A stretch of 33,480 nt of DNA from Gammaproteobacteria bacterium (GTDB lineage Bacteria; Pseudomonadota; Gammaproteobacteria; Pseudomonadales; Halieaceae): the NCBI GenBank assembly GCA_030428835.1, contig JAUIEP010000040.1, positions 1 to 33,480 of the forward strand, given 5' to 3'. The translations under genes and the position numbers were made by a program. Position 1 is the stretch's first letter, and every line of letters begins with the position of its first letter. The notes below the pieces were generated by a model that ran no database searches, was not told where the DNA came from, and saw nothing but the letters and a program-made list of their open reading frames with translations. This document shows, piece after piece, positions 6,126 to 21,722 of the stretch.

Positions 6126-7406
6126 CTACAACAAGGATCCGTAGTCCGCCTCCAGCTGGTCGAAATTCAGCCCTGTGATAAAGCGTGAAAAGCTCATCCA
6201 GGACGCCAGGCCCTTCAGGTCGGCAAAATGCGGCGGTATGAAGGGCGGGTCTATGACCACACCCTCGTTGCGCAGCAACTCGTAGGTCTTGATGTCTTCC
6301 AGCGTGATCTTGCCGCAGAACAGCAGGGGCAATGTCTGCAGCTTGCCCTCGCTCATGGCGAGGCGCAGGTAGTTGAAGGTCTGCACGAAGCCACGCATAT
6401 AGGCCAGGTCCTTGTTGAACGGGTGCCCCTCCGGGGTACTGCCGCGGAATATCCGGACCGCCACCGTATACGCATCGTCCGCCGCGACCCCCATCGTCCG
6501 CAGGTAGTCGAACACCTCCAGGAAATTGGCGCCGTCCTCGGCCAGCGTAATGGAGCGCACACGGTTGATGAGCCGGTACAGGCGCGTCGGGCTGCTGCGC
6601 ATCGTCAGGATCTCCGTGAGTACGGCGAGGCCCTCCTGCGTGGTGGTGGATGACGGCGGTCCCTTGCCCATGAAGGTACACCAGGGCTGTGCGTTGCCGT
6701 TGAGGGTGGTGCCGAGGTGGATCCAGCCCTCGTGCACCTCCAGCACATCGATGTCGAGTTCATTAAACACCGCATCACCGCGAATCTTCAGGTAGTCCGA
6801 GCCCGCGGCGGCGTCCGCGGTCATCCTGTCATCGAGCAACACGCGGATGCCCGCGTTGGGAAATACCCGTAACAGGCGCTCGTTCAGCATGTCCACGGCC
6901 TGCGCTGCCGGGATGTCCTTCTCCTCCTCATGCATGGACACGTTGCCGAGCAGGTTCACCAGCGTGCCCTCCATGTCCTTGCCGAGGTCCGCCAACGAGG
7001 GGTCGCCGGCGTGGAATACGTCCGACGCCGAGCCGTAGAGCTCCTCCGAGAGGATGCCGAACTCATCGGTGCCGCGGGACTCGAGCATGCGCACGACGGT
7101 CGCGTACTCCCGGCAAATCCGGCGCATCAGCGCGGACAGCGGGTTCAACTGGCCCAGCGTCCGTGAGATATCGCGCTCGATCTGGTGCAGTTCCGCCCGT
7201 TTGCTCGCGGGGTCGAAGTCCAGGGGATTCTGCGCAAGGTAGTAGTCGCGATCGACGGCCGGGAGTTCGCGGCACCCCTGGCGGAAAAACGCCTCCTTGA
7301 CCTCGGGACCCCACTTGATCGCGTCGAGGATACGGATAGGCCGCTGCGCCTGGACTATCCGGTTGGACAGGTCCCGCACGGTGGCAAGGTAGTCGCTACT
7401 GCTCAT
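6126..7406 (-). CDS. DUF1704 / QEGLA-motif protein, putative zinc metallopeptidase
   Basis: A 426-residue soluble protein of the family described as flavohemoglobin expression-modulating QEGLA motif protein (TIGR02421, DUF1704). The defining motifs are present: HEGWIH at residues 225-230, a KGPPSSTTT stretch, and QEGLA at 257-261. DUF1704 also covers the eukaryotic MATCAP tubulin carboxypeptidases, in which HExxxH plus a downstream glutamate bind zinc. Here H225, E226, H230 and E258 fit that pattern, so I infer a cytoplasmic metallopeptidase, although the bacterial substrate is unknown. The start at 7406 is preceded by GGGAG; an earlier ATG at 7646 would read through the intergenic region and overlap the divergent small gene. 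It is divergent from that gene at 7620, sharing a 213-bp AT-richer intergenic region. Confidence 0.88.
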   Translation of the reverse strand: MSSSDYLATVRDLSNRIVQAQRPIRILDAIKWGPEVKEAFFRQGCRELPAVDRDYYLAQNPLDFDPASKRAELHQIERDISRTLGQLNPLSALMRRICREYATVVRMLESRGTDEFGILSEELYGSASDVFHAGDPSLADLGKDMEGTLVNLLGNVSMHEEEKDIPAAQAVDMLNERLLRVFPNAGIRVLLDDRMTADAAAGSDYLKIRGDAVFNELDIDVLEVHEGWIHLGTTLNGNAQPWCTFMGKGPPSSTTTQEGLAVLTEILTMRSSPTRLYRLINRVRSITLAEDGANFLEVFDYLRTMGVAADDAYTVAVRIFRGSTPEGHPFNKDLAYMRGFVQTFNYLRLAMSEGKLQTLPLLFCGKITLEDIKTYELLRNEGVVIDPPFIPPHFADLKGLASWMSFSRFITGLNFDQLEADYGSLL

Positions 7407-7619
7407 GGGTATCACAGCTCCCTGGATTTTCGGGGGCAGGCTCAGGCCCTGTCTACCCGCCGCCCTGACACCATAACGGAGGCAGGCGGGCCGACGAAGA
7501 CAAATTATATTAGCGCCTGCCAAAAAATTATTTTGCTGTACCGGCCACCGTTTCCTTCCTAGATTCGTGCGAGGTCCCCGCAGCGGGACCGCAATCACGA
7601 CCATAGGAGGCTCACAGCG

Positions 7620-7808
7620 ATGGGCAACATGAACGGTTCCCGGCAAGGGACCGGCAAATGGGCGCCTGACGATTGGCGTTTCACCGGCTATGATGACGGT
7701 GGCTCGACCTACGAATACAGGCAGAAGGGCCGGGACTCCTCGGCGAAACGGCGCGACATCGAGCGGCGCAAGGCGCGCCGCCGGTCACAGCGCTGCCGCG
7801 ACTGGTAG
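7620..7808 (+). CDS. Small basic protein of unknown function
   Basis: A 62-residue reading frame with a strong Shine-Dalgarno sequence (AGGAGG about nine bases before the ATG) and a terminator-like hairpin just after its stop, which together argue for a real gene. The N-terminal half is Gly/Asp/Trp/Tyr-rich (KWAPDDWRFTGYDDGG) and the C-terminal third is strongly basic (RRKARRRSQR), possibly a helix binding nucleic acid or ribosome. No signal peptide or membrane segment is present. I do not recognise a family. It stands alone, divergent from the DUF1704 gene. Confidence 0.65.
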   Translation: MGNMNGSRQGTGKWAPDDWRFTGYDDGGSTYEYRQKGRDSSAKRRDIERRKARRRSQRCRDW

Positions 7809-15230: not shown

Positions 15231-15920
15231 ATGGCACTATTGCTCAACAACCACCTCTTCCTCGCCACGCCGCGAACGGCCAGCAACGCCCTGTTCCACT
15301 GCCTGCGCGGCGCCGGCGGGGTGGATCTCGGCGATCACCACGATATCCCCGATGACGTGCCGCCCGGCGTGCGCGTGGTCGCCTGCGTGCGCAACCACTA
15401 CGACTGGTTTGTCAGTTCCTGGATAAAGGCGACCTGGCGCAGCCGGGACGAGGCGTTGCAGAAGATGTCCTTCGGCGAGTGGCTGCGGCGCATCCACGAG
15501 CCGGGCTCGCCCCTGCGTCACTTCACCTTTCGCGGTTACGTGGAGATAGGCAACGCGCAGGGCGAACTGTACGCGCCACTGTGGCAGCGCTGCGACGCGC
15601 TGTTGCGCTACGAGGACATCGAGACCGAACTGCAGAGCCTGCTCGGCAAGGATTGCCCGCTACCGGAACGCATCAACACCACGCCGCACAAGAAGGATTA
15701 CCGGCGCTACTACGACGACGGCCTGCGCGAATTCCTCGCGCAGCGCTACGGTGGGGAAATGGCCGAACTGGGTTACACCTTCGACAACGGCCGCGCGTGG
15801 CAGCCGCGGGACGACAGCGCGCCCCTGACGGGCGGCGGCCTGTTCGACGCCAACAACGTGCGCCGCGAGCGCCTGCGCGAGTACCGCGACTGGCCGAACA
15901 TCGCCAACAACCCCGACTGA
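15231..15920 (+). CDS. Sulfotransferase-like P-loop protein
   Basis: A 229-residue protein. The N-terminus has a 5'-phosphosulfate-binding-like loop TPRTASNALFH (residues 13-23), and a 3'-phosphate-binding-like element VRNHYDWFVSSW follows (R54, S62/S63). Together they suggest a PAPS-dependent sulfotransferase fold, as in small bacterial carbohydrate or protein sulfotransferases. The rest includes Trp/Tyr/Arg-rich segments and an Asn-rich C-terminus. No signal peptide: cytoplasmic. GGAG lies just before the ATG. It follows the TetR gene and converges on the oxygenase-like gene with a six-base gap between stops, so it borders the hydroxylase-sulfotransferase fusion locus. Confidence 0.68.
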   Translation: MALLLNNHLFLATPRTASNALFHCLRGAGGVDLGDHHDIPDDVPPGVRVVACVRNHYDWFVSSWIKATWRSRDEALQKMSFGEWLRRIHEPGSPLRHFTFRGYVEIGNAQGELYAPLWQRCDALLRYEDIETELQSLLGKDCPLPERINTTPHKKDYRRYYDDGLREFLAQRYGGEMAELGYTFDNGRAWQPRDDSAPLTGGGLFDANNVRRERLREYRDWPNIANNPD

Positions 15921-15926
15921 ATGCGC

Positions 15927-16589
15927 TCAGGCGCCGAACGCATCGCGCCAGTTGCCCGGTATGACGAACCCCTTGCTCCAGCGGTAGGCGTCGACCGAGG
16001 CGATCGCGTGCCAGAACGGCTGATCCGCGCGCACCTCGAAGATGTTGATCTGCCCGTCGCTGTCCCAGCGCGTCTGCAGCGCCGTGGTGACCGGGTCGAC
16101 GTAGCGGAAGAACGAGCGCCCCTGCGCGGACTTGCGGATAATGTACATGCGCCAGCCCGGCACGCTCGCCATGTTCGTGTGCCACTCCTTGAAGCCGCCC
16201 GGCGGGTAGAGGTAGTTGCCGCTCTCGAGGACTGACTCGCCGAAAAATTCCGTCAGCAGGTCCGTCAGCAGCTTGCGCCGCGAGCGATCCATCCCCGGAC
16301 CCATCTTTACCACCCCGTTCTTCGCCTGCACACGGCTCAGGGGGGCCTGCGCCCTGCGCGGCGCCTCCTGCTCCTGCGCGCAGGTGGCGAGTTCGTACGC
16401 GATACGGTCGGCGTCGGGCAGCGCCTCGATCTCCCGCCGCGCGCTCACGAGCTGCGGTTGTGCGAGGTGCCGGCTGAAGGCGTGCAGGTCGAGATCCTCC
16501 GGGACATAGGACAGCTCCTGCACCAGTTCCCACGCCTGCCGCAGCCGGGGAATCCCGGCGATGTCGAACACGTGAACGGGGCCGTCCAT
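15927..16589 (-). CDS. Oxygenase-like protein with an HTN motif
   Basis: A 220-residue protein. The N-terminal half (1-95) is helical without recognised motifs. The C-terminal half resembles a double-stranded beta-helix 2-oxoglutarate/Fe(II) oxygenase: YPPGGFKEWHTNM (H137, N139), GRSFFRYVDP, then FWHAIASVDAYRWSKGF (H194 and R203 or K206). The order His-x-Asn ... His ... basic residue mirrors the HxD...H...R iron and 2-oxoglutarate ligands, except that asparagine replaces the usual acid. It starts five bases after the stop of the large fusion gene, so the two are almost certainly co-translated. The function is inferred to be oxidation or binding connected with the modification performed by the fusion protein. 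Confidence 0.6.
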   Translation of the reverse strand: MDGPVHVFDIAGIPRLRQAWELVQELSYVPEDLDLHAFSRHLAQPQLVSARREIEALPDADRIAYELATCAQEQEAPRRAQAPLSRVQAKNGVVKMGPGMDRSRRKLLTDLLTEFFGESVLESGNYLYPPGGFKEWHTNMASVPGWRMYIIRKSAQGRSFFRYVDPVTTALQTRWDSDGQINIFEVRADQPFWHAIASVDAYRWSKGFVIPGNWRDAFGA

Positions 16590-16594
16590 CGGCG

Positions 16595-19573
16595 CTACTT
16601 GACGAGTGTGCCGTTGGGGGTGGCCCAGGTCTCGTCGAGCGCCGCCTCGTGACTCTGCACGAGTTCCGGCTCGGCGATGCCGGGCAGCGCCTCCACCGCG
16701 AAGATCTCGTTGACGTCGCCCTCGAAGCGCAGCCAGGCCACGATGCGGCCGTCGGTGATATCCACCACCCACACGCCGCAGATGCGCTCCTTCGCGCGCT
16801 CGGTAATGGGAATGCTGCCGAACACCGCGGTCTCGCGCACCTCGGACAGGCCGATGAAGGCGTACTTGTCGACGAAGTCCAGGCCGCGCGTGAAGCCGGG
16901 CAGTTCCGCCACCGTCTGGATCTGCCCTGTCGCCACATCGACCTTCGCCAGCGAGCCCTTGCCGGACTCGAGCACCCAGAGCTGGTCGCGGTACCAGCGC
17001 GGCGAGTGCGGCATCGACAGGCCGCTCGCCACTATGCGGTTTTCCTTGATATCCATGATCAGGCCGCCCTTGGCGCGGTTCTCGCGCCAGCCGCCCGCCT
17101 TGTCGCTCTGGCCGAGGGACGTCACGTAACGCGGCCGGTCGTCCACCAGGCACAGCCCGTTGAGATGGCAGCGGTCCTCGGGGACCAGTTTCGAGATGAA
17201 CCACGGCTGCCAGCGCGGCACGAAATTGTTTTGCAGGTCCAGGGTGCACAGGCAGGAGAAACGCGTGTTGATCAGCCACAGGTCCGTGCTGCTCCAGGCC
17301 ATCTCGTGGATGTCGATGTTGCCGGTCACGGCCTCGAGGCGTTTGACGTAGCGCCCCGGCCGCCCCGGGTCGCCCTGCTTCTCGGGCCGCGGCACATCGA
17401 TATAGAACTCCACGGCATTGCGCGTGCCGACCGCCAGCTTGCCCTGCGCCTTCGCCAGTCCCATCGGCTTGGCGACGCCGGCGAAATGCGTGTTCAGCTT
17501 GCCGCCCCGGCTGCGCACCAGCACCACCTTGCCGGCCTGGTAGGTGGTGACCACCAGGCTTGTATTGCCGCTGGCGAGCATCTGGCTGAGGTTGGAGGTG
17601 TAGGAGGAGCGCAGCGGGGAACTCTCCGGGTCGCGACTGGGGTCGAGCTTCAGGCGCTGCGGGTACACCCGCTGTTTGCTGTCGGCGATCATCGCGGTCG
17701 CCCTGGCGGTGGTCTCGCGCGTCGCGTCGAGCAGCGGCGTGATATCGGCCTCGTGCCGCCGCCACTTGTCCGCCTCGGGCGGGCTCACGGTATGCCGGGA
17801 CAGCGGCAGCGGCTGGCCGAGGTCGGCGTCCCACGGCAGCCCCGCAAACTGGCACAGCCGCGCGATCTCACCGGGCGTATCCGCCAGCAGGTCCTCGTAA
17901 CTCAGGGCCGTCCAGCGCTCTGGCTCGATCGCGGCGAGGTCCTCGATCACCTGCTGGTTGCTGGCGAGCCACTGCTGCTGCGCGATCTCGAAGAGGCTCT
18001 TGCCCTCCAGTTCACGCCAGCCCGGCGTGAGCAGCAGCGACCACTGCCCGCGCGACCAGCCGGGCACCTCGGGATAGGTGACGAAACGCCCGCTCTCCCA
18101 CGCCTCGGCGATACTCGCGAGGCTCTCCTCGGGCTTGCGATAGAGATAGATGTAAAGGGCGCCGGGGAAGACCTCTTCCAGGAACGGGATGCGCAGTGCG
18201 TTCTTGGGCGTTTTCTCCAGCAGCCGGAACGGCGCGTTGCGCGCGGGCGGCTTGCCTTCCCGGTCGCGCACCTTGGCGAGGAAGGACTGGCGGATGATGT
18301 CGCAGGTCTGGGCGTCGGCGTCCTGCGCCGTCAGCCGGTTGGACTCGAACAGGCGGTTCGCCGGCTGCAACTTGGGAATGCTCTCGAAGAGCTGGTGGCT
18401 CTCGCCGCCCACCGTGTGCAGGCCCGGCGAGCGCGACAACGTCTCGAACAGGAAGGAACTGCCCGAGCGCGGGGCGCAGACAAGGATGACCGGGCGGTGG
18501 AAGCGCTTTGCCAGCCGCGAGGTCGCGGCCGCGGGCGGCTGCGCGGGCGCCTCCGGCGCAGGCGGGGACTGCGCCGCCGCCAGCCCGACCTGCGCCCGTC
18601 TTTCTCCCTTCACGGCGAGTTCGGTGTTGAGCGCGGGGGCGACGGCGGCCTCGTCGACCATGTACGTCGCCTCCATGCCGTTGGAGAGGTACAACTGCCC
18701 CTTGATCGACTCCAGCGCGGCGCGCAGGCTCGCCCGGTAATTCTCATACACCGGCCATCCCGCCGGACTCTCGCCGTACTCCATCCAGGCGTTGAACCAC
18801 TGCCGCAGGTAGCGCTCGACGGCGGCCTCCAGTCGCGCCAGCTTGTGCGGCTCGGCGGCGTATATCCCGCGCAGGTCGTCCAGCAGGGGCGCCACCAGGC
18901 TGCGCTGCTCCCAGGGCGACATGACGACCGGGAAGTTGATGCTCTCGGTCTCGAGCGCCACCTCGGCGCCCTCGCGGTACTCGATGAAGCGCGGACTCTG
19001 CCGGGCGTCGTCGCCGGAGGGCGGAATCGTGCGGGCGCTGTCCATGAGATCCCACAGCGCCGGGGAGCCGACGGTGTCGGCCACCAGGTGGATGCGCGTC
19101 TGGTCGGTGTCGTTCTTGACCGTGTGCATGTTCCAGGTATTGAAGACCCAGCAGTCCCCCGCCCCCATGTGCACCGCGCTGTCGCCGGAGTGGAACATGA
19201 TGTCCGGGTGGGTCTGGATAGGCACGTGCACGCGGATGCGCTGGTGCCAGTAATAGCTGGCGTCCATGTGCGCCTTGGCGTCGCAGCCGGGCGCGAGACG
19301 CATCAGCCGGGTGCGCCCCAGCACAGACTCGAAGGAGGCCAGGACCTGCATGAGATAGGGGCAGCGCTGCAGCAGCGGCGTGGGCAACTGCGGGCCCTGC
19401 AGCCTGTCGCTCTGCAACTGGCCGCCGGTGGAAATGAGCTGCAGCGCGCTGTTGCCCACGAAGCCGGAGGGATGGGCGCGCCACTCATCTTCGCTGAAAC
19501 CCGCGGCTTCCCCGGCCAGCCGCTGCGCATCGAAGCGCAGAGGCAGGTGATAGAAATCGTATTTCAGGTCCAT
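16595..19573 (-). CDS. Asp/Asn beta-hydroxylase - sulfotransferase - TIGR03032 fusion protein
   Basis: A 992-residue cytoplasmic protein with three domains. Residues ~1-170 resemble aspartyl/asparaginyl beta-hydroxylase: AHMDASYYWH (H102, D104), RIRVHVPIQT, GDCWVFNTWNMHTVKND (H150) and RIHLV (R160), the iron and 2-oxoglutarate sites. After a helical region (180-330) and a Pro/Ala linker (334-352) comes a sulfotransferase domain (~358-635) with the PAPS loop CAPRSGSSFLFETL (366-379) and the 3'-phosphate element YLYRKPEESLAS (R479, S484, S487). Residues ~655-992 are a TIGR03032 domain, marked by TGNIDIHEMAW, TRFSCLCTLD, EDRCHLNGLCLVDDRPRYVT, SMPHSPRW and LPGFTRGLDF. The ATG at 19573 has no evident Shine-Dalgarno sequence. 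The domain order suggests hydroxylation followed by sulfation of the same target, but no substrate is known. Confidence 0.87.
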   Translation of the reverse strand: MDLKYDFYHLPLRFDAQRLAGEAAGFSEDEWRAHPSGFVGNSALQLISTGGQLQSDRLQGPQLPTPLLQRCPYLMQVLASFESVLGRTRLMRLAPGCDAKAHMDASYYWHQRIRVHVPIQTHPDIMFHSGDSAVHMGAGDCWVFNTWNMHTVKNDTDQTRIHLVADTVGSPALWDLMDSARTIPPSGDDARQSPRFIEYREGAEVALETESINFPVVMSPWEQRSLVAPLLDDLRGIYAAEPHKLARLEAAVERYLRQWFNAWMEYGESPAGWPVYENYRASLRAALESIKGQLYLSNGMEATYMVDEAAVAPALNTELAVKGERRAQVGLAAAQSPPAPEAPAQPPAAATSRLAKRFHRPVILVCAPRSGSSFLFETLSRSPGLHTVGGESHQLFESIPKLQPANRLFESNRLTAQDADAQTCDIIRQSFLAKVRDREGKPPARNAPFRLLEKTPKNALRIPFLEEVFPGALYIYLYRKPEESLASIAEAWESGRFVTYPEVPGWSRGQWSLLLTPGWRELEGKSLFEIAQQQWLASNQQVIEDLAAIEPERWTALSYEDLLADTPGEIARLCQFAGLPWDADLGQPLPLSRHTVSPPEADKWRRHEADITPLLDATRETTARATAMIADSKQRVYPQRLKLDPSRDPESSPLRSSYTSNLSQMLASGNTSLVVTTYQAGKVVLVRSRGGKLNTHFAGVAKPMGLAKAQGKLAVGTRNAVEFYIDVPRPEKQGDPGRPGRYVKRLEAVTGNIDIHEMAWSSTDLWLINTRFSCLCTLDLQNNFVPRWQPWFISKLVPEDRCHLNGLCLVDDRPRYVTSLGQSDKAGGWRENRAKGGLIMDIKENRIVASGLSMPHSPRWYRDQLWVLESGKGSLAKVDVATGQIQTVAELPGFTRGLDFVDKYAFIGLSEVRETAVFGSIPITERAKERICGVWVVDITDGRIVAWLRFEGDVNEIFAVEALPGIAEPELVQSHEAALDETWATPNGTLVK

Positions 19574-19610: not shown

Positions 19611-19639
19611 AAACAAAAAAGCCCCGGCACAGCCGGGGC
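19611..19639 (-). terminator. Strong rho-independent terminator after the beta-helix protein gene
   Basis: On the minus strand an 8-bp perfect GC stem (GCCCCGGC / GCCGGGGC, three-base loop, 19621-19639) is followed by TTTTTTGTTT (19620-19611). It begins 17 bp after the stop of the beta-helix gene and ends 37 bp before the ATG of the fusion gene. Confidence 0.88.
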
Positions 19640-19655
19640 CTCGATGATAGCAGGA

Positions 19656-21722
19656 TCAGCGCTTGTCGGAACGCCGGCGGTAACGCGCCGCCACGCCCGG
19701 TAGCAGCAGACCGAGAATCCAGAGCGCCCAGCCCGGCAGCACCGGGACCTCCAGCGGTGCGGCGGGTGCCGCCGAGGCGCCGCTTTCAACGGCGCCGATG
19801 TCCAGCCTGCCGTCGAGGATGCGGGGGAAGCCCGAGCCGCGCTGGTCAAACATCTGGGGCGACGGCCCCGGCTCGCCCGCGTTGATCGCGGGGCTGCCCG
19901 CCAACAGCTGGTGCACCTCGTTCAGGCCGCCGGCATTCGCAAGGACTGGCGACACACCCGAGGCGGTATTGAGGATAGTCCCGCCGCGGTCAACGACATT
20001 GGCGTCGGAGTCATCGCCGACCAGGCTGTAGCGCGAATAGACGTAGTTGCCGTTCGAATAGATGTCATGCCCACCGGAATAAAACGACTCGTTCTCCGCG
20101 ACAATCGTGTTGTAGAGGTAGATGTCGCCGTCTTCCTGCGAGATGCCGCCGCCGTAGTAGTAGGACTCGTTGAAGACGATGGTCGAGTTGCGGATGATGG
20201 TCGTATAGCTTGTCTCCTCGATGGCGATACCCCCGCCGTTGTCGTAGGCGTAGTTGTTGGAGATGGTGCTCTGGTCGATCGTCAAACGGCCGTCGTCGCT
20301 GTAGAAGAAGATGCCGCCGCCGTCGCCGCCGTCGCGCGCATTGTTGCCCGAGATGGTGCTGTTGCTGACGACCAGGTAGCCGTCGTCGTCCGAGTAGAAG
20401 AAGATACCGCCGCCGTCGTCATAGGCGTCGTTGTTCGAGATCGTGCTGTTGTCGATATAGACCGTGCCGCCCTCGTCGTCGGCGTAGGCGAAGATACCGC
20501 CGCCGTCGTAGCGCGCGGTGTTGTTGGTGATCAGGCTGTCCTCGACGCGCAGGATGTCGTCGTCGTCATCCATGTAGAAGGCGATGCCGCCACCGTCTTC
20601 GCCGGCGTAGTTATTGGAGATCTCGGTGCGGCGGATGGTGAGGTAGCCCTCGTCCTGGTAGATCGCGCCGCCGTCGGTGTCCGCCGAGTTGTTGGTGATG
20701 ACGGAGTCTTCGATCGTGAGGTTGTTGCCGTTGTTGCTGATCGCGCCACCGTCGCTCGCGTCGCCGTCCCGGAGGGTGAGGTCGCGGATGGTGGTGTCGT
20801 CCTGGATATCGAAGATCCGGCTGGAATTGTTGCCGCTGATCGCCAGGCTGCCGGAACCGGGGCCGTTGATGGTCAGTTCGTCCGTAATGTCGATCTGGCC
20901 CAGCGTGAGGGTGATCGTACCGGTCACGCCGCCCGCGAAGGCGATGATATCGGCGCCGCCGGCGCCGTTCGCCGCGTCGATAGCCTCGCGCAGCGAACAG
21001 TCCGCGTCACAGGTACCGTCATCGGTGTCTGCTGTCTTGGTGACCGTGAAGGTGGCGAGGCGGTAGGGGTAGGACCCCGCGTTCGCTGACGTCAGGGCAG
21101 GCTCTGTCTCGATATAGCCCGCGTGCACCTCGAGGTCCCAGTCGCCGCCGGCGCCCGTCACGTCGTCGGATGCCGCGACGTCGGCGCCCGTGTAGCGCGC
21201 CAGTTGCGCCACGAAGGCGTTCCCCGCCTCGCCCTGGGCGACATTACAGGAGTACAACAACAGGTCGGGCCGCGCCGCCGCGTCGTTGACGAACCACTGC
21301 TCGAGTTCCTCCGCGCGCGCACTCAGCTGCGCGCCGGAGAGGTGTGTGCTGCCAAGCTGCATGGAGCCCGGTTCGCCGTGGGCCACGATATGCACGGCGG
21401 TGATGTCACGCCGCCCCCGCAGCACCTCGGTGATCTGCTCCAGGCCGTCGCGCTGCTGTTCCAGCACGACGAGTTCGATGTTGGGCCGCAGGTTCAGCAG
21501 GAGCTGCGCGGAATCCGCCACCGTGGCGTCGACAAACAACAGCTCCCGCGTGACCACGGAATCGGTCTGCCGGAAATGCGACTTGGGCTGCTGCAGGTCG
21601 GGAAGGACAGCAGCGTGACTGGCGGTGGACGAGGCCAGCACGAGGCTGACGGCGATGGAACTGGAAATATCAGAATGCTTGCGAATTGCCGCGGCAATCG
21701 CAGTCTTCTTATAGTTATTCAT
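19656..21722 (-). CDS. Secreted DUF4347 / beta-helix (choice-of-anchor Q) protein with IPTL-CTERM-like tail
   Basis: A 688-residue surface protein. An extended signal peptide (residues 1-38, cleavage near SHA-A) precedes a DUF4347 domain (~58-205: LLFVDATVAD, VHIVAHGEPG, LLLYSCNVAQG). A CSLREA motif (242-247) opens a right-handed parallel beta-helix (~285-600) with coils of about 30 residues ending in NNxAxxDGGGI. A choice-of-anchor Q closing segment follows (SPAINAGEPG, RILDGRLDIGAVE), then VPVLPGWALWILGLL-RRR (659-684), an IPTL-CTERM-like sorting signal. The coils contain many tyrosines beside acidic residues (FYMDDDDD, FYSDDDGY, FYSDDG). Such proteins are usually large surface or adhesin-like proteins. 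It has its own terminator; the gene for the hydroxylase-sulfotransferase fusion follows. Confidence 0.87.
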   Translation of the reverse strand: MNNYKKTAIAAAIRKHSDISSSIAVSLVLASSTASHAAVLPDLQQPKSHFRQTDSVVTRELLFVDATVADSAQLLLNLRPNIELVVLEQQRDGLEQITEVLRGRRDITAVHIVAHGEPGSMQLGSTHLSGAQLSARAEELEQWFVNDAAARPDLLLYSCNVAQGEAGNAFVAQLARYTGADVAASDDVTGAGGDWDLEVHAGYIETEPALTSANAGSYPYRLATFTVTKTADTDDGTCDADCSLREAIDAANGAGGADIIAFAGGVTGTITLTLGQIDITDELTINGPGSGSLAISGNNSSRIFDIQDDTTIRDLTLRDGDASDGGAISNNGNNLTIEDSVITNNSADTDGGAIYQDEGYLTIRRTEISNNYAGEDGGGIAFYMDDDDDILRVEDSLITNNTARYDGGGIFAYADDEGGTVYIDNSTISNNDAYDDGGGIFFYSDDDGYLVVSNSTISGNNARDGGDGGGIFFYSDDGRLTIDQSTISNNYAYDNGGGIAIEETSYTTIIRNSTIVFNESYYYGGGISQEDGDIYLYNTIVAENESFYSGGHDIYSNGNYVYSRYSLVGDDSDANVVDRGGTILNTASGVSPVLANAGGLNEVHQLLAGSPAINAGEPGPSPQMFDQRGSGFPRILDGRLDIGAVESGASAAPAAPLEVPVLPGWALWILGLLLPGVAARYRRRSDKR
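20130..20705 (-). repeat. In-gene tandem beta-helix coil repeats (about 90 bp period)
   Basis: Residues ~340-530 of the beta-helix protein consist of seven coils with a period of about 27-30 residues, each containing I(S/T)NN and ending in GGGI or GGAI. The repeats have diverged in sequence, as expected for structural repeats rather than a recent tandem expansion. Confidence 0.75.

Follow-up and report, generated by a model that had tools for sequence, protein, structure and literature searches.

A hydroxylase–sulfotransferase–TIGR03032 fusion protein in a Halieaceae genome, and its partial counterparts in other bacteria

Why would one bacterial polypeptide join a 2-oxoglutarate oxygenase, a sulfotransferase and a TIGR03032 domain, and on what would it act? 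The question is raised by a protein, here called P0001, that is encoded in positions 1–33,480 of contig JAUIEP010000040.1 (assembly GCA_030428835.1), from a Gammaproteobacteria bacterium of the family Halieaceae. We refer to this 33,480-nucleotide stretch, the whole of the DNA analysed, as the window (Table 1), and to other genomes and loci by G and L numbers. P0001 reads as a single open frame from an ATG start, and the original prediction that it carries three domains in one chain was borne out by profile searches, in which each family scored above its cut-off: Asp_Arg_Hydrox (PF05118) at residues 66–167 (E = 5.3e-15, 56.1 bits versus a cut-off of 22.6), Sulfotransfer_3 (PF13469) at 361–582 (E = 3.2e-22, 80.3 bits versus 27) and TIGR03032 (389 bits versus 251.5). 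DUF4915 at 661–971 (E = 1.4e-119) and Sulfotransfer_1 (E = 3.5e-6) were also over their Pfam cut-offs. The signature motifs lie where they had been placed, with HMD at 102–104, the second His at 150, CAPRSGSSF at 366–374 and TGNIDIHEMAW at 750–760.

Table 1 Features of the window (positions on the forward strand)
Feature	Position	Strand	Basis
MATCAP protein (PF08014), E = 1.7e-126, in a bacterium	6126-7646	-	Pfam
FG-GAP / UnbV_ASPIC protein, 743 aa	12215-14446	+	Pfam
Convergent gene, 229 aa, P-loop-like start; belonging to the system uncertain	15231..15920	+	ORF
Downstream protein, 220 aa, starting 5 nt past the P0001 stop	15927..16589	-	ORF and 4 homologues
P0001, hydroxylase–sulfotransferase–TIGR03032 protein, 992 aa	16595..19573	-	Frame, profile matches, motifs
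TIGR03032/DUF4915 module of P0001, residues 653-987, modelled beta-propeller	16613..17617	-	Pfam, TIGR03032 profile, model
Sulfotransferase module of P0001, residues 345-640 (PF13469 361-582)	17654..18541	-	Pfam, models, alignment
Hydroxylase module of P0001, residues 1-325 (PF05118 core 66-167)	18599..19573	-	Pfam, alignment, models
Terminator-like hairpin separating P0001 from the beta-helix gene	19618..19642	-	Sequence
Secreted-type protein, 688 aa: DUF4347, CSLREA motif, right-handed beta-helix, C-terminal hydrophobic anchor; candidate substrate	19656..21722	-	Profile matches

A chimeric assembly or a chance reading frame was rejected as the source of this design on two grounds. A second full-length copy, a hydroxylase–sulfotransferase–TIGR03032 protein of 1,030 aa, is present in a genome from another family of the order (G718) and shares 47% identity with P0001 across residues 1–990; and the G+C content of P0001 by codon position (0.658/0.471/0.916) is as a real gene at such G+C would show. 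A 978-aa antisense ORF is the mirror of the same frame. We modelled P0001 twice. In the full-length model (52 sequences), the hydroxylase and TIGR03032 parts were confident, with most ten-residue blocks of 1–320 and 655–980 above a pLDDT of 85, and the poorly aligned sulfotransferase part fell below 60; a second model of residues 1–640 (25 sequences) reached a mean pLDDT of 91.0. The pTM values, 0.49 and 0.55, give no confidence in how the three domains are arranged with respect to one another.

Both enzymatic modules retain their catalytic positions. In the hydroxylase, H102, D104, H150 and R160 are conserved, the first three being the predicted Fe ligands and R160 the predicted 2-oxoglutarate Arg. 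The set is complete in all nine sulfotransferase-fused hydroxylase modules aligned and in 17 of 19 other hydroxylase rows; the remaining two are partial and have gaps there. P0001 shares its profile, its HxD...H...R set and its fold with PF05118 enzymes such as human AspH and L-proline cis-4-hydroxylase, and differs from them in having a long helical extension (residues 171–325) and a fused sulfotransferase. AspH itself is not known to have the Asp ligand. Specificity for Asp or Asn, which the original prediction had assumed, goes back to Pfam's name for the family, and we rejected it as a known property because L-proline cis-4-hydroxylase (4p7w; Foldseek E = 4.0e-11 and 1.0e-11), which acts on free proline, is the closest solved relative in both sequence and fold. 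AspH was a weaker fold match (2.4e-6). A hydroxylase tree of 17 rows, excluding G718, did not resolve the position of P0001.

In the sulfotransferase, the P-loop PRSGSS including R369, followed by E391, K454, R479 and S487, is invariant in 18 of 18 rows (alignment A3). R369 presumably belongs to the 5'-phosphosulfate loop and R479/S487 to the Arg/Ser pair that binds the 3'-phosphate of PAPS, and we take E391 to sit where the catalytic base of a tyrosylprotein sulfotransferase (TPST) would be. CurM, whose substrate is a carrier-bound polyketide, ranked above TPST1 and TPST2 by fold (Foldseek E = 1.5e-8 versus 1.4e-7 for human TPST1) and was also the nearest sulfotransferase by sequence. The P-loop and fold resemble those of CurM, the tyrosylprotein sulfotransferases and bacterial RaxST; P0001 is unlike them in that its sulfotransferase is an internal domain fused to an oxygenase. 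The source genome encodes an APS kinase (E = 2.8e-69), so PAPS should be made. The same genome is rich in sulfotransferases (30 PF13469 matches, 29 over cut-off).

The third module had been predicted to be propeller-like, and the model agrees: high pLDDT extends across most of residues 655–980 of a modelled beta-propeller whose top Foldseek matches are six-bladed designs and kelch domains. Among the genomes examined, the large TIGR03032 family spans Cyanobacteria, Chloroflexi, Planctomycetes, Bacteroidota and Proteobacteria. P0001 contains a full-length member, whereas most other members stand alone or are joined to a TPR-glycosyltransferase or a GNAT domain; in the source genome, the single PF05118 match and the single TIGR03032 match are both P0001. 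Fusions in which TPR repeats end in a GT9-type stretch were over the GT9 cut-off in L040, L069 and L046 and just under it in L134, with TPR only in L119 and L116, and GNAT domains are fused to TIGR03032 in L009 and L128. A TPR-GT41 gene, of the O-GlcNAc-transferase family, directly precedes the TIGR03032 gene in G017 (L157). The propeller is a recurring partner of transferases, and known members of these transferase families modify proteins or cell-surface molecules. A role as substrate selector would fit such varied fusions, and the pattern of fusions suggests a testable function for TIGR03032 alongside enzymes that act on exported proteins. One 1,242-aa protein (L162:5218-8943) combines TPR, a GT9-type stretch, TIGR03032 and further TPR in one chain.

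The design of P0001 is not unique. We searched sets of 369, 140 and 390 genomes, which overlap one another and an earlier set of 57; in each genome no more than the top 2, 5 and 2 candidates, respectively, were scored, at E ≤ 1e-20. G718 was the one further triple fusion found among the genomes searched, with none in the 80 loci kept from genome contigs, and several partial forms surround the pair. Two-domain hydroxylase–sulfotransferase fusions without the propeller occur in seven genomes (G007, G022, G068, G096, G189, G301 and G311), and hydroxylase–TIGR03032 fusions without the sulfotransferase on four Wenzhouxiangellaceae contigs. Elsewhere the parts are separate genes: hydroxylase and sulfotransferase are neighbours in G043, G449 and G662, and a hydroxylase gene lies next to a TIGR03032 gene in G041. 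A candidate sulfotransferase–TIGR03032 fusion in G466 was rejected, because several stops between the two mark them as adjacent genes; a 265-aa ORF and then a TPR-GT41 gene follow. The finding is real and more general than first described. Literature searches, which lay largely outside subscription journals, gave no report of the P0001 architecture among the matches listed, and no paper on the function of TIGR03032 or DUF4915 under either name, on a sulfotransferase fused to a beta-hydroxylase domain, on a SEC-C motif with a sulfotransferase or on a TonB/TPR/oxygenase combination.

Outside fusions, hydroxylase and sulfotransferase remain linked. A sulfotransferase gene lies within about 1.5 kb of 24 of 26 stand-alone hydroxylases of the extended type (loci L166–L212), a count in which 15 of the 26 loci come from one genus and L212 qualifies through a weak match of 39 bits. 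The figure is 21 of 23 once L170, L192 and L193, fetched through their sulfotransferase match, are set aside, and seven of nine when counted by genus, one of these on a weak match. In larger regions, eight of nine stand-alone hydroxylases have a sulfotransferase at most two genes away. By our estimate, from 30 sulfotransferases in 5.2 Mb, chance would give a few per cent. The seven two-domain fusions and the 24 linked loci support the coupling that had been supposed, and the two activities very probably serve one pathway; in P0001 the pair would then amount to a two-step modification in one chain. That the sulfate is placed on the newly installed hydroxyl itself, as had been suggested, is less likely than not.

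The Wenzhouxiangellaceae proteins (L033, L034, L038 and L039) bear on this coupling from the other side. Having no sulfotransferase, they have also lost both His ligands and the Arg in all four cases and the Asp in one, so that their hydroxylase, judged by these residues, appears to be a pseudo-enzyme fused to a propeller. All four form one clade, and the loss, confined to it, was probably a single event. If the two activities form a coupled pathway, the sulfotransferase and the hydroxylase ligands should be lost together, as they are here, and the case shows that TIGR03032 can persist after the chemistry is lost. It also raises the alternative that P0001 is itself a relic, a fusion no longer working as a unit and heading for the Wenzhouxiangellaceae form, where the essential function would rest with the propeller. 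Stand-alone TIGR03032 is indeed common, and the Wenzhouxiangellaceae TIGR03032 groups with that of P0001 (SH-aLRT 88, in a quick tree built from 49 of the 97 rows, without G718); the catalytic positions of P0001 and G718, however, are all intact, and we regard decay as very unlikely.

The gene setting offers a candidate substrate. Upstream of P0001 lies the gene for a large secreted-type beta-helix protein, probably on a separate transcript given the terminator-like hairpin between the two. Across TIGR03032 loci, beta-helix genes occupy 16 of the 159 slots adjoining TIGR03032 versus 8 of the 548 at a distance of two to six genes (Fisher p = 3.0e-6; 86 loci before genus deduplication, with the beta-helix region of the window as sole query and the window itself left out). 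With one locus per genus (54 loci), the counts are 14 of 101 adjacent versus 8 of 345 farther slots (p = 2.7e-5). Flanking genes were called with a home-made heuristic that missed TIGR03032 in L096 and L103, both dropped from the neighbour count. As 40 of the 54 loci have no detected beta-helix neighbour, the adjacency is a tendency. Several TIGR03032 neighbours independently show Beta_helix or PMP repeats in Pfam. Both triple-fusion genes adjoin a beta-helix gene, G718 having two tandem homologues of the window's beta-helix protein (2.5e-35 and 4.4e-29) that start 175 bp off and are divergent. A beta-helix gene is also found at three of the four Wenzhouxiangellaceae loci, the fourth (L038) being a contig without a called upstream gene. 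Among two-domain fusions, that of G189 adjoins a Beta_helix/NosD protein by Pfam, and no beta-helix neighbour was detected for L148, L149, L151 and L152. Beta-helix proteins may be the substrates of the form that carries the propeller. We judge it somewhat short of an even prospect that the neighbouring protein is the substrate of P0001, and its gene offers a ready substrate for testing the enzyme.

Composition bears on which residues of this protein could be modified. Its residues 296–560 contain 24% Asp plus Asn, 8.3% Tyr and 0% Pro (2.8% Pro in the whole protein), so hydroxylation of proline in that central region is unlikely. The same figures suit an alternative in which P0001 makes two independent modifications, hydroxylation of Asp, Asn or another residue and sulfation of tyrosine at separate sites, through one shared propeller. 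The fold match to tyrosylprotein sulfotransferases and the conserved Glu at the place of their base point the same way, as does mean Tyr content, which is 4.0% in five beta-helix neighbours at sulfotransferase loci versus 2.3% in 23 others (Mann–Whitney p = 0.013, on rounded values); yet those five proteins come from three lineages, and all 28, three of them secreted neighbours without a beta-helix match, were hand-picked. Acidic-flanked Tyr, moreover, is frequent only in the window's beta-helix protein (10, versus 0, 3, 0 and 0 in the other four). We consider separate-site modification unlikely.

A further alternative places the chemistry on small molecules: a free amino acid or lipid would be hydroxylated and then sulfated, with TIGR03032 as an oligomerisation or docking part. 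It draws on the top solved matches, the free-proline hydroxylase and CurM, and on NCBIfam, where P0001 scores weakly, far under cut-off, for a family of nonproteinogenic amino-acid hydroxylases and for LpxO. Against this, TIGR03032 is fused to or adjoins GNATs and glycosyltransferases of the TPR-GT41 kind, it adjoins surface-protein genes, and the window genes that were profiled include neither an NRPS nor a PKS gene; we rate small-molecule tailoring as rather improbable. A peptide or protein is the probable substrate, as argued by the fusions of TIGR03032 to TPR-GT9-type and GNAT domains and its adjacency to TPR-GT41 genes, by the resemblance of the sulfotransferase fold to both tyrosylprotein sulfotransferases and CurM, and by the gene set of L149 described below.

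Our preferred reading, offered tentatively, is that P0001 is a cytoplasmic tailoring enzyme. Its N-terminal Fe(II)/2-oxoglutarate oxygenase would hydroxylate a residue, the PAPS-dependent sulfotransferase would then add sulfate, and the C-terminal propeller would hold or select the polypeptide, most likely the large beta-helix surface protein encoded next door. We infer that all this would take place ahead of export. A hint of work on chains before export comes from relatives of P0001 with SEC-C, a zinc motif found at the end of SecA. Pfam finds it in the G043 hydroxylase (1.2e-6) and in a TPR-sulfotransferase beside the G189 fusion (9.4e-5), and by eye we recognised it in the L156 sulfotransferase and in L163 and L218; P0001 itself has none. 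In its broadest form, the proposal would make TIGR03032 the general substrate-holding propeller of a surface-protein modification system, with the triple fusion yielding sulfated hydroxy-residues on beta-helix proteins, a modification that to our knowledge has not been described from bacteria. We think this extension rather unlikely; if true, TIGR03032 lends itself to glycosyl-, acetyl- and sulfo-transferases and to hydroxylases in an undescribed bacterial system.

Other gene settings are varied, so the hydroxylase–sulfotransferase pair works on substrates of more than one class. The G311 two-domain fusion (L149:2873-10454) lies amid Asn_synthase, PqqD and Sulfotransfer_1 genes, with two sulfotransferase-type genes in the set, together with HPr-kinase-like and JmjC-like genes that are each under cut-off, a set that resembles a lasso-peptide cluster. 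In lasso-peptide tailoring, the Fe/2-oxoglutarate enzyme CanE beta-hydroxylates a peptide Asp (PMC8498205), and in a published table the entries lasso B2, sulfotransferase, aspartyl beta-hydroxylase, PqqD and Asn synthase have cluster numbers close to one another (PMC10040529). P0001 has the Fe/2-oxoglutarate hydroxylase in common with the CanE system, but no Asn_synthase or PqqD match was found among the window ORFs profiled. Around the G096 fusion are three 2-oxoglutarate-oxygenase genes, one for a TPR-sulfotransferase and one for a TPR-PF05118 protein, and TonB-receptor-like genes, recognised by eye, stand beside the hydroxylases of L154, L165, L164 and L218.

Two small genes follow P0001. 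The 220-aa protein gave no Pfam, PHROG or PDB match; H137-T-N139...H194...R203 is invariant in four distant homologues, and the protein is possibly 2-oxoglutarate-oxygenase-like, with HxN replacing HxD. The 229-aa protein has no Pfam match and matches a phage galactose-3-O-sulfotransferase family weakly (E = 0.0014). Farther off, the window encodes a member of the MATCAP family, which is named for a microtubule-associated tyrosine carboxypeptidase.
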